This document shows positions 17,014-20,322 of a stretch of DNA of 64,000 nucleotides, in pieces. Source of the DNA: Synechococcus sp. WH 5701 (GTDB lineage: Bacteria > Cyanobacteriota > Cyanobacteriia > PCC-6307 > Cyanobiaceae); NCBI RefSeq assembly GCF_000153045.1, contig NZ_CH724159.1:1537513-1601512 (forward strand). Reading direction: 5' to 3'. The first letter of the stretch is position 1; each line of letters begins with the position of its first letter. Under the pieces are notes generated by a model. It was not told the origin of the DNA. It ran no database searches and worked only from the letters and a program-made list of their open reading frames with translations. Made by a program: the position numbers and the translations under genes.

Positions 17014-17337
17014 TCAGGAGCTGGCCTCAAGTTCGCGCTTCATCCGCTCCAGGGTCTGGTGCATCTGAGTGAACATCTGCTCGGGCGTCATGCCGAACTG
17101 CCCCAGCTGGGTGCGCAGCTGCTCGACGGTGAGCTTCGCCTGGAAATCCTCGGAGAGTTCGAAGCGCTTCATGAACACCTGATAGCGGCCCATCAGGTCC
17201 TCCATCTGGTCGATGAACAGCTTTTTCCCTTCCCGGTCGAACTTGCCGTAATCGCCCCCCAGCTGGGTCATCTGCTGGTAATCGGTGAACAGCCGTTTGG
17301 CCTCGTCCTGAACGATCTCGGATTCGAAGAAGGCCAT
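17014..17337 (-). CDS. DUF1825 family protein
   Basis: This 107-residue soluble helical protein begins [20 protein letters not shown] and contains [22 protein letters not shown], matching the cyanobacteria-specific DUF1825 family of unknown function. I start at ATG 17337; the frame remains open to 17385 but those 16 residues are not family-like. There is no signal sequence, cysteine or membrane segment. It lies 32 bases upstream of tyrS on the same strand and 131 bases from the divergent HhH gene. Confidence 0.82.
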
Positions 17338-17468: not shown

Positions 17469-18155
17469 ATGGCCAAAGGGCACTGGTTGGATCCCCTCGC
17501 CCGCAGCCTGCTCGAGGCCACGGGCCAGATCCGCCGTGCGCCCGCCCCCCCGAAGGCCGACGCCCCGGAGACCGCGAGCACAGGCGACGACAGCATCGAG
17601 CGCGACCTGCTGGCCCTCAAACTCGCTCAGAATCCAGGCCTGCGGCTGAAGAATGCCCAGGAGGTCCGCCAGGCCGCGTCCCTGGGCTGGCGCCTGGATG
17701 TGAACCGGGCCACCCCCGCCGACTGGCTGCGCCTGCCGGGCTGCACTCCCACCCAAGTGGACCTGCTGCTGCGTTTGCAGAGCGGTGGCGTGCAGCTGAG
17801 CGGGCCGGAGGATCTCCAGAACCTGCTCGGCCTCGACGGGGAGCTGATCCGCAGCTGGACGCCGTTGCTGGAGTTCCGTTGGTATGGCGACGCGCCGGCG
17901 GCACGACCGGCAGCACTCGATCTGAACCGCTGCAGGGCCGAGCAGCTCGGGGCCCAGCTCGCTCTGGAGGAGGCCCGCTGCCGGCGCCTGTTGCAGGAGC
18001 GCAGCCGCGCCCCCTTCCGCGACCTGGCTGATCTCCAGCAGCGATTGCAACTGCCGGCCGAGCTGGTGGAGGGCCTGATCGGGCGGGTGAGCTTCGGCCA
18101 GGGCCCCATCGGCCCGGAGTTGCCGAGGCCGCCCCGGCCACCGGCCCCCCTTTGA
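17469..18155 (+). CDS. Helix-hairpin-helix DNA-binding protein (ComEA-like)
   Basis: The 228-residue protein has an N-terminal helical part and two tandem helix-hairpin-helix modules. The first, about residues 77-125, contains DVNRATPADWLRLPGCTPTQVDLLL. The second, about 148-200, contains LDLNRCRAEQLGAQLALEEARCRRLL. The pattern LD(V/L)N-A--L--LPG is the ComEA/UvrC type, which binds the DNA backbone non-specifically. There is no signal peptide, so it is unlike exported ComEA. Its stop overlaps the start of the next gene, a GIY-YIG nuclease. Confidence 0.78.
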   Translation: MAKGHWLDPLARSLLEATGQIRRAPAPPKADAPETASTGDDSIERDLLALKLAQNPGLRLKNAQEVRQAASLGWRLDVNRATPADWLRLPGCTPTQVDLLLRLQSGGVQLSGPEDLQNLLGLDGELIRSWTPLLEFRWYGDAPAARPAALDLNRCRAEQLGAQLALEEARCRRLLQERSRAPFRDLADLQQRLQLPAELVEGLIGRVSFGQGPIGPELPRPPRPPAPL

Positions 18156-18808
18156 GCGTGGCCAGAGGACGCCAGCAGGAGCTGTTCCAGGGCGGCGCCC
18201 CGCCGGGTGGCGACAGCGTGGGGCCAACGGCGCCGCCGCTGCTGCGAGAGCAGCTGCTGGAGTGGCAGCGGCGGCTGGCTGAGTTTCAGGGGCCCCTGTT
18301 CGAGGGCAGCGCCAGCGAGCATCAGCAGGGCAGCCTCTTTGGCAGCGGAACCAGCGGCGACAGCAGTGACGACGGCAACGGCAACCGCAACGGCGTGGAG
18401 GATCCCCAGGAGCGGGCCGCCCGTTTCGATCCACTGGCCTTCGAGGCCCAGAACCTGCAGTTCTGGCGCTGGCCCGAGCCGCCCCAGCTGGGCCCTGCCC
18501 TCTACCTGGTGATGGACCGGCCGGCGCGGCTGGCCGCGCCGCTGCTGCTCTACGTGGGCGAGACCGGCCAGGCCGACCGGCGCTGGAAAGGGGAGCACGA
18601 CTGCAAGGGCTACCTGGCGGCCTATGCCGAGGCCATGGGCCATGTGGGCCTGGAGTGCCGCTGCAGCATTCGCTTCTGCTGCGACGTGCCAGCCGGGGTG
18701 CGCGCCAGACGAGCCCTGGAGCAGGCCCTGATCCGCCGCTGGCAACCGCCCTTCAACAAAGAGACCCGCCAGCGCTGGAGCACCCCGTTCACCAATGATC
18801 CCGTCTGA
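18152..18808 (+). CDS. GIY-YIG nuclease family protein
   Basis: The 218-residue product has a poorly conserved first half ending in an acidic, Gly/Ser/Asn-rich linker (about residues 60-82). The C-terminal half is a GIY-YIG-type nuclease fold. GPALYLVMD and LLLYVGETGQADRRW replace the two signature strands, ARRALEQALIRRWQPPFNK carries the Glu and Asn expected at the active site, and four cysteines cluster at CRCSIRFCC. TTG 18152 overlaps the upstream TGA (TTGA); a GTG at 18158 is the alternative. The substrate is unknown; the coupling with an HhH protein points to DNA. Confidence 0.75.
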   Translation: MSVARGRQQELFQGGAPPGGDSVGPTAPPLLREQLLEWQRRLAEFQGPLFEGSASEHQQGSLFGSGTSGDSSDDGNGNRNGVEDPQERAARFDPLAFEAQNLQFWRWPEPPQLGPALYLVMDRPARLAAPLLLYVGETGQADRRWKGEHDCKGYLAAYAEAMGHVGLECRCSIRFCCDVPAGVRARRALEQALIRRWQPPFNKETRQRWSTPFTNDPV

Positions 18809-18846: not shown

Positions 18847-20322
18847 ATGCAGTTCAGCTGTCCCTCCACCCCGCTGGCCGAGTGGAGCGGTGACACCCTC
18901 GGTGTCGGCCTGTTCCAGGGGGAGACGGGCGAACGCCTCGAGGCCCTCGAAGCACGCTTCGGACCCGGACTGCGGGAGCTGCTGGAGCGCCAGAGCTTCA
19001 AGGGCAAGCCGGGCGAGTGCGTCAGCCTCACCCAGCTCCAGCCCACTCCCCTGCGGCTGCTGCTGGTGGGCCTGGGAGAACCGGGCCGCTTCGATCTCGA
19101 CGCCCTGCGCAGCGGAGCAGCCGCCATCGCCAAGGCGGCGGGCCCTGGCCGCGAGCTGGGCCTGGCCCTGCCCACCGAGGGCCTGGAGCCCTTAGCAGCG
19201 GCGCGGGCGATGGCCGAAGCCGTGCGCCTGAGCCTCTACGACGATCAGCGCTTCCGCAGTGAGGCCGAGCCCAAGCCGATCCCAGAGGCCGTGAGCCTGC
19301 TGGGCCTGGCCGCCGGGGCCGCCGCCGGCCTAGAGGGAGTGTCAGCCACCTGCGCGGGCGTGGAGCTGGCGCGGCAGCTGGTGGCGGCGCCACCGAACGT
19401 GGTCACCCCCCAAGCCCTCGCGGACACCGCCGCGGCCATCGCCGGGGAGTTCGGACTGGAACTGAAGGTGCTGGAGCGCTCCGACTGCGAAGCCCTCGGC
19501 ATGGGTGCCTATCTCGGGGTAGCCCAGGGCTCCAGCCTCCCTCCCAAATTCATTCATCTCACCTACCGCCCTGAGGGTGGCTCCAGCCGGCGGCTGGTGC
19601 TGATCGGCAAGGGACTCACCTTCGATTCGGGCGGCTACAACCTCAAGACCGGCGGATCCCAGATCGAGATGATGAAGTACGACATGGGCGGCAGTGCCGC
19701 GGTGCTGGGGGCAGCCCGGGCGATCGCCGAACTGCGGCCGGCGGACGTGGAGGTGCACGTGATCGTGGCCGCCTGCGAAAACATGATCAGCGGCGAGGCG
19801 ATCCACCCCGGCGACATCCTCACCGCCTCCAACGGCAAGACGATCGAGGTGAACAACACCGACGCCGAGGGGCGTCTCACCCTCGCCGATGCCCTGGTGT
19901 ACGCAGCCAAGCTGGAACCCGATGCCGTGGTTGATCTGGCCACGCTCACCGGAGCCTGTGTGATCGCTCTGGGCGAGGAAATCGCCGGCCTCTGGTCCCC
20001 CAGCGACAACCTGGCCGAAGCCCTGCTGGAGGCGGGCCGCAGCGGTGGGGAGGCCTTCTGGCGGATGCCGTTGCAGGCCTCCTACAAAAAGGGGCTCAAG
20101 AGCCCGGTGGCCGACATGAAGAACACCGGACCCCGCCCAGGCGGGGCCATCACTGCCGCGCTCTTCCTTCAGGATTTCGTGCCTGCCGACCTGGCCTGGG
20201 CCCACCTGGACATCGCCGGCACGGTCTGGAGTGACAAGGGACGGGGCCTGGACCCCGCTGGCGCCACAGGCTTCGGCGTCCGTACCCTCGTGGAATGGGT
20301 GAGCCGAGGGGGTGCGGCGTAA
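18847..20322 (+). CDS. pepA: Leucyl (cytosol) aminopeptidase
   Basis: PepA removes N-terminal residues from peptides and, in some bacteria, also binds DNA. The 491-residue M17 enzyme has the two-metal catalytic domain in its C-terminal half: LIGKGLTFDSGGYNLKTG, KYDMGGSAAVLGA, and the signature NTDAEGRLTLADALVYA. Catalytic Lys, Asp and Glu residues are all present. It lies 38 bases after the GIY-YIG gene, and a small membrane protein gene follows by 32 bases. Confidence 0.95.
   Translation: MQFSCPSTPLAEWSGDTLGVGLFQGETGERLEALEARFGPGLRELLERQSFKGKPGECVSLTQLQPTPLRLLLVGLGEPGRFDLDALRSGAAAIAKAAGPGRELGLALPTEGLEPLAAARAMAEAVRLSLYDDQRFRSEAEPKPIPEAVSLLGLAAGAAAGLEGVSATCAGVELARQLVAAPPNVVTPQALADTAAAIAGEFGLELKVLERSDCEALGMGAYLGVAQGSSLPPKFIHLTYRPEGGSSRRLVLIGKGLTFDSGGYNLKTGGSQIEMMKYDMGGSAAVLGAARAIAELRPADVEVHVIVAACENMISGEAIHPGDILTASNGKTIEVNNTDAEGRLTLADALVYAAKLEPDAVVDLATLTGACVIALGEEIAGLWSPSDNLAEALLEAGRSGGEAFWRMPLQASYKKGLKSPVADMKNTGPRPGGAITAALFLQDFVPADLAWAHLDIAGTVWSDKGRGLDPAGATGFGVRTLVEWVSRGGAA

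Follow-up and report, generated by a model that had tools for sequence, protein, structure and literature searches.

The GIY-YIG superfamily, which includes R.Eco29kI, I-TevI, Cho and the N-terminal domain of UvrC, and the helix-hairpin-helix (HhH) proteins ComEA, PsbU and type II secretion system (T2SS) protein K are the described systems closest to the gene pair analyzed here. EndoMS/NucS and MutL, the mismatch endonucleases that are associated with the sliding clamp, have folds that differ from GIY-YIG. One cyanobacterial protein, sll0664 of Synechocystis, was described in a 2006 survey of the superfamily as a GIY-YIG relative of I-TevI with an unassigned extra region (PMC1564403) and, going by this description, resembles the nuclease of our locus in being a cyanobacterial GIY-YIG protein. 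The excerpts of that survey on sll0664 make no mention of a clamp, and we found no literature mention of the protein beyond it. Our literature search likewise found no paper joining a clamp-binding motif with GIY-YIG; papers on the sliding clamp and GIY-YIG exist, and PMC12292046, in its excerpted text, does not link the two.

In this study, we analyzed a window of 64,000 nucleotides from the 3.28-Mb genome of Synechococcus sp. WH 5701, whose nearest named relatives are Cyanobium and Synechococcus strains, comparing its proteins with Pfam, NCBIfam, PHROGs and PADLOC. We take the family of these relatives (f1 in our searches) to be the Cyanobiaceae, and its members with genomes of 1.6 to 1.9 Mb to be Prochlorococcus-like. 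The original prediction was borne out in part: there are indeed two adjacent genes on the plus strand, an HhH gene (17469..18155, 228 amino acids) followed by a GIY-YIG gene (18158..18808), whereas the start codon and the significance it gave to a cysteine cluster were not sustained. By Pfam, the order of genes in the window is a DUF1825 gene (17014..17337, minus strand, divergent), the HhH gene, the GIY-YIG gene and pepA (18847..20322, plus strand), encoding an M17 leucyl aminopeptidase; pepA lies downstream in 7/7 and the DUF1825 gene upstream in 5/7 of the other Cyanobiaceae loci compared. Between 17300 and 18950, neither a promoter nor a terminator consensus was detected. Both gene families are conserved among 60 relatives of the window's genome (47/60 and 45/60), so that the observation is more than chance.

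The HhH assignment proved sound. HHH_3 was matched in 38 of 39 homologues (E up to 0.1), with the window protein itself matching HHH_3 and T2SSK weakly and below the Pfam cut-off; the AlphaFold2 (AF2) model is helical, with a mean pLDDT of 88, and the solved relatives with the best scores include ComEA and PsbU. HhH modules are thus common to this protein and to ComEA, PsbU and T2SS protein K. Unlike these, the window protein has two different HhH units, the first PsbU/ComEA-like and the second ComEA/T2SSK-like, and among the genomes examined its coupling to a nuclease is a feature of Cyanobiaceae only. By eye, no obvious signal peptide or membrane anchor is seen in the window protein. At its start (17469 to 17531 in the window), the peptide HWLDPLAR is strongly conserved in the homologues from Cyanobiaceae.

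The second protein is, on the evidence of its sequence, a probable DNA nuclease with intact active-site residues. Its catalytic domain is encoded at 18497..18778 on the plus strand, and the product is up to 218 amino acids long when read from the longer start, TTG 18152, from which residues are numbered here. Its GIY-YIG strands, originally noted as diverging from the consensus, read ALY...LYVG. With the Pfam GIY-YIG model the window copy reaches an E value of 0.27 only, which leaves it outside the 28 of 35 homologues that match the model with an E value of up to 0.1 (5.8e-6 for the best of them). Tyr118, Tyr134, Gly136, Arg144, His149, Cys151, Glu190 and Asn202 are invariant in all 35. Tyr118, Tyr134, Arg144, His149, Glu190 and Asn202 we take, from what is known of I-TevI and UvrC, to be the GIY-YIG catalytic set. 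The likeness to R.Eco29kI, UvrC/Cho and I-TevI lies in this residue set and in the probable fold, and the differences lie in the LYVGET and RWKGEHDCK motifs conserved in the cyanobacterial family and in clamp-type motifs within the disordered N terminus of the window protein. The AF2 model of the nuclease has a mean pLDDT of 81, with most of the domain above 90. Its top structural neighbor is R.Eco29kI (Z 5.4 to 5.6, rmsd 6.3 to 8.6, 131 to 134 residues aligned), and PD-T4-3 follows (Z 4.7, rmsd 3.4, 88 aligned), both weak alone at Z below 8; the N-domain of a plant glutaredoxin (2lwf) is also among the first neighbors (Z 4.2, rmsd 5.0, 101 aligned), and the absence of other families from this list carries no evidential weight. 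The best GIY-YIG chain in Foldseek had an E value of 0.8, and a sequence search of solved structures with the nuclease profile gave no match.

A segment reading CRCSIRFCC (18656..18682, plus strand) had been proposed to alter the chemistry of the enzyme. The segment is there, but it is lineage specific: CRCSIRFCC or its variant TRCSIRFCC occurs in the window's genus only, and most other Cyanobiaceae have a SIRFW-type sequence, such as QLSIRFWTD. We therefore reject the cluster as a source of new chemistry. The sole invariant cysteine of the family is Cys151, in the HDCK motif.

Since the closest folds, R.Eco29kI and PD-T4-3, are restriction enzymes, and 2 of 35 members match a PADLOC candidate model (best 0.0014), a homing, restriction or defense nuclease has to be considered. 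We hold this to be very improbable, given a single match per genome and a conserved locus in Cyanobiaceae. The proteins tried gave no PHROGs match, and viral contigs and phage records held no confirmed relative that would point to a phage or mobile origin.

The two genes were originally described as translationally coupled through a TTGA overlap. Such an overlap requires TTG 18152 as the nuclease start. In seven loci of the closest named relatives (L094 to L100), however, the nuclease begins with an ATG at the position of GTG 18158, which in the window is in frame and two bases after the HhH stop, making GTG 18158 the better start. The coupling itself is genuine: ATGA overlaps are present in other genera of Cyanobiaceae (L101, L104, L108 and others), which identifies close coupling as a real feature of the family.

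To place the pair in an evolutionary context, we surveyed 386 genomes of the phylum that are at least 90% complete. The nuclease was found in 60/60 Cyanobiaceae, including the genomes of 1.6 to 1.9 Mb in which no HhH gene was detected, and no member of the family was among the unmatched genomes, which were ordered nearest kin first. In the smaller set of 60 relatives, all but two of the Cyanobiaceae have it (35/37), and the assemblies of those two (G010 and G021) are 85 and 90% complete. Among the matches listed, 40 of 129 other Cyanobacteriia have an intact nuclease, with 7 to 8 first-look candidates scored in the large genomes, and this frequency argues against a universal need for the enzyme. 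Five others (G102, G111, G211, G390 and G418), all with MutL, carry truncated or broken copies, which suggests that the nuclease decayed repeatedly in other Cyanobacteriia. The HhH gene is present in 35 of 60 Cyanobiaceae, leaving 25 with a nuclease and no detected HhH gene, and an orthologue (E below about 1e-40) is present in 96 of the 129 other Cyanobacteriia.

These distributions decide against a split, UvrC-like enzyme in which the HhH protein binds DNA and the GIY-YIG protein cuts it, as the original prediction had it. Adjacency in Cyanobiaceae does favor such a two-part unit: in all 35 members with both genes the matches lie 2 to 59 bases apart, and the HhH gene adjoins the nuclease by HMM in 79 of 80 named loci (the best 80 of 562), the 80th being a locus in which a contig end cuts the HhH gene and its C terminus is still visible. 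Independent distribution had been named in advance as evidence against the split enzyme, and this is what we found outside Cyanobiaceae, where the nuclease occurs in 32 of 96 genomes with an HhH orthologue and in 8 of 33 without one (Fisher p=0.39). Where both genes occur (32 genomes), they are on different contigs in 19 and on the same contig in 13, of which 12 have them 38 kb to 1.7 Mb apart; in the 13th (G046) they are separated by 1.3 kb, which includes a gene on the opposite strand. Within Cyanobiaceae, reading of the DNA detected no HhH gene upstream of the nuclease in any of eight small-genome loci. Each of the two proteins is thus retained in genomes without the other. In addition, UvrC itself is present in 55/60 relatives (33/37 Cyanobiaceae and 22/23 others; G000 and 54 of the remaining 59), its RNase H-like domain was found in neither open reading frame by Pfam and family searches, and a profile comparison of the HhH and nuclease families showed no relation. 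Outside Cyanobiaceae, moreover, the HhH gene in 8 of 9 loci neighbors a TM2-SHOCT-like gene instead. The split-UvrC idea is therefore largely refuted, and we consider it improbable. What stands of the proposed two-part DNA enzyme is a probable nuclease whose gene, in Cyanobiaceae, is tightly coupled to that of an HhH protein; the pair is not obligate.

Two apparent exceptions did not survive inspection. In the sole apparent fusion of the two genes (L121), the junction contains an ambiguous base and the nuclease N terminus is out of frame; we regard the fusion as an artifact, so that no reliable one was seen. An apparently noncyanobacterial HhH/GIY-YIG locus (L168, contig PBTV01000051.1, from a Rubrivirga MAG) is 67 to 89% identical in DNA sequence to Synechococcus loci and is probably misbinned.

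Our best explanation is instead that the GIY-YIG protein alone is the functional unit, with the HhH protein a dispensable accessory. An unexpected result came from the N terminus of the nuclease. Two QxxLF peptides, QQELF (motif 1, 18173..18187, plus strand) and QGSLF (motif 2, 18326..18340, plus strand), resemble the clamp-binding consensus and are likely clamp docking tags; the original prediction had missed them. Both lie in predicted disorder, as the first 30 residues and the linker after helix 32-56 have low pLDDT in the AF2 model. Across the 35 aligned homologues, motif 1 is conserved at Q8 (35/35), L11 (34/35) and F12 (30/35) and motif 2 at Q59 (34/35), L62 (33/35) and F63 (29/35); apart from Met1, no position in the first 30 residues is conserved as well as these three of motif 1, the best of the rest reaching 21/35.

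In a discovery set of 47 nuclease sequences, motif 1, sought in the first 45 residues, was present as Q..L[FLW] in 44, the misses being two sequences with QG[DE]FF and one whose start was chosen too early; the strict QLxLF form was present in 3. A later set added 40 genomes, of which 4 belong to Cyanobiaceae and 36 do not; two of the 40 have broken copies. The looser pattern, which predates this set, matched the N terminus of 40/40 homologues (mean of 6.6 and at most 14 in 2,000 shuffles). Q..L[FLW] and the strict QL[SDNKEAT]LF were fixed after some homologue sequences had been viewed; they matched motif 1 in 40/40 (shuffle mean 2.9, at most 10) and in 28/40 (shuffle mean 0.05; none of the four Cyanobiaceae), respectively, and motif 2 was found in 35/40 (shuffle mean 3.0). 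Common ancestry is not accounted for in the shuffles, and some genera contribute several genomes to the later set; more telling is the constraint on the motif positions amid otherwise diverged sequence. The named Cyanobiaceae loci (80, the best of 562) share at least ten contigs with the discovery set; motif 1 was found in 75 of these loci and motif 2 in 79, and the five misses of motif 1 were two QPSFF, one HGDLF and two N termini that were out of frame or not found. As a control, we examined the 314 further genes that surround the fetched loci: in their first 45 residues, 12 of them have Q..L[FLW] and none has the strict motif.

The consensus for peptides that bind the sliding clamp is given as QL(S/D)LF, with leucine favored at position 2, in the part of PMC11139829 that deals with it. 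Many of the homologues from outside Cyanobiaceae have QLSLF, QLNLF, QLKLF or QLDLF as motif 1, in keeping with this consensus, whereas in Cyanobiaceae position 2 is mostly glycine or glutamine. The mark of a β-clamp client, a conserved Q..L[FLW] peptide in a disordered segment, is present, with the strict form found mainly outside Cyanobiaceae; its rarity or absence in the window's own family slightly lowered our confidence. Short motifs can mislead, and clamp docking is a proposal drawn from sequence.

With this caveat, we somewhat favor a clamp-tethered GIY-YIG endonuclease acting on newly replicated DNA. The protein would be a small endonuclease acting on DNA through a complete GIY-YIG active site, and its two disordered N-terminal QxxLF peptides would dock it to the DnaN sliding clamp, where a pair of motifs would let one nuclease use both pockets of the dimeric clamp ring. 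Riding on clamps that stay behind after replication, it would nick or cut structures or errors in the freshly replicated DNA. In Cyanobiaceae, the nuclease and the HhH protein, which may help DNA binding, are probably translated from a shared message. Clamp binding, nuclease activity, substrate and the role at the fork are what we infer here from family membership, the intact active-site residues, the conserved motifs in predicted disorder, the distribution and the close coupling in Cyanobiaceae. Clamp recruitment would be a trait that the window nuclease shares with EndoMS/NucS and MutL.

A structure-specific nuclease for branched DNA or stalled forks, similar to Slx1 or MSH1, with the clamp serving only for localization, is the alternative that we rate as possible, if doubtful. 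Slx1 and MSH1 belong to the same superfamily, and the GIY-YIG domain of plant MSH1 was reported to bind branched DNA (cited in the excerpted text of PMC12292046); against this reading, Pfam finds no second domain beyond GIY-YIG in the nuclease homologues.

Under the clamp-tethered reading, the fate of mismatch repair genes in the family raises the question of whether the GIY-YIG enzyme has replaced MutL by making the strand-directed nick in Cyanobiaceae, which have MutS and lack MutL. Among the matches listed, MutL (PF01119) was found in 0/60 Cyanobiaceae versus 128/129 other Cyanobacteriia, and the nuclease in 60/60 versus 40/129. In the set of 60 relatives, MutL_C was found in 0/37 Cyanobiaceae versus 22/23 others, and MutS_I was kept in 33/37 versus 22/23; the four Cyanobiaceae without a MutS_I match are assemblies that are 64 to 85% complete. 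The absence of MutL from 60/60 Cyanobiaceae contradicts a statement in PMC4390886, as excerpted, that MutL is universal, cyanobacteria included. Excerpts of PMC5101192 report several Prochlorococcus strains without mutL and the absence of mutH from all cyanobacteria tested, and the model for other cyanobacteria outlined in PMC4390886 postulates an unidentified MutH-like nicking enzyme. Replacement would also accord with the nuclease being present in a MutL-less genome outside Cyanobiaceae (G056, by two models) and with clamp-enhanced EndoMS/NucS performing noncanonical mismatch repair elsewhere, as described in PMC8228993.

However, the correlation comes down to essentially one evolutionary event, the loss in Cyanobiaceae; another genome without MutL (G100) has no nuclease match either; and outside Cyanobiaceae MutL is present as well in all 40 sampled genomes whose nuclease is intact, so that substitution for MutL is not how the nuclease arose. 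NucS was also considered for the part of the absent mismatch enzyme and set aside: NucS_C gave partial matches, mostly over the cut-off, in 2/37 Cyanobiaceae (G003 and G012) and 6/23 others, and the two in Cyanobiaceae also count against replacement by the GIY-YIG enzyme. MutS provides a further argument here and, for the clamp-type reading of the nuclease motifs, an internal control in its favor. Outside Cyanobiaceae, a C-terminal clamp-type peptide was present in 9 of 10 MutS proteins and the tenth had a longer variant, the tails reading QLDIF, QLDMF, QLGLF, QLNIF, QLTIF, QMTIF or QLSLI, whereas no C-terminal clamp motif was found in 10 of 10 from Cyanobiaceae (MutS loci compared, L214 to L233). 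Lacking this motif, Cyanobiaceae MutS may have left mismatch repair. The missing tail coincides with the loss of MutL.

The pattern fits a back-up or replacement nuclease and, resting on about one event, leaves the replacement of MutL unlikely in our estimation. The more novel proposal of a MutL-free mismatch or postreplicative repair in picocyanobacteria (Synechococcus, Cyanobium and Prochlorococcus), with incision by the clamp-tethered nuclease, seems to us rather unlikely as well. Few photosynthetic organisms are as abundant as picocyanobacteria, and for the correction of replication errors with MutS and without MutL in these bacteria the conserved clamp-motif nuclease is a concrete and testable candidate. 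If the proposal is true, strand-directed repair would have another chemistry in addition to those of MutL/MutH and NucS.

Returning to the HhH gene, a clustered neighbor outside Cyanobiaceae had raised the suspicion that it lies beside psbU. The neighbor is in fact the gene for a TM2-SHOCT-like membrane protein, which adjoins the HhH gene at L079, L081, L083, L085 to L088 and L090, two of these being confirmed by Pfam, and psbU is elsewhere in the genomes compared. TM2 was also matched in 2 of 39 homologues of the HhH protein. All 35 Cyanobiaceae with the HhH gene have psbU, and two genomes (G185 and G302) have psbU and no detected HhH gene (7/15 and 7/18 first-look candidates scored). A few HhH loci outside Cyanobiaceae have DUF1825 (L079, L087 and L092) or pepA (L089) nearby, from which it follows that the HhH neighborhood may be older and that the nuclease may have arrived in it later, in Cyanobiaceae.
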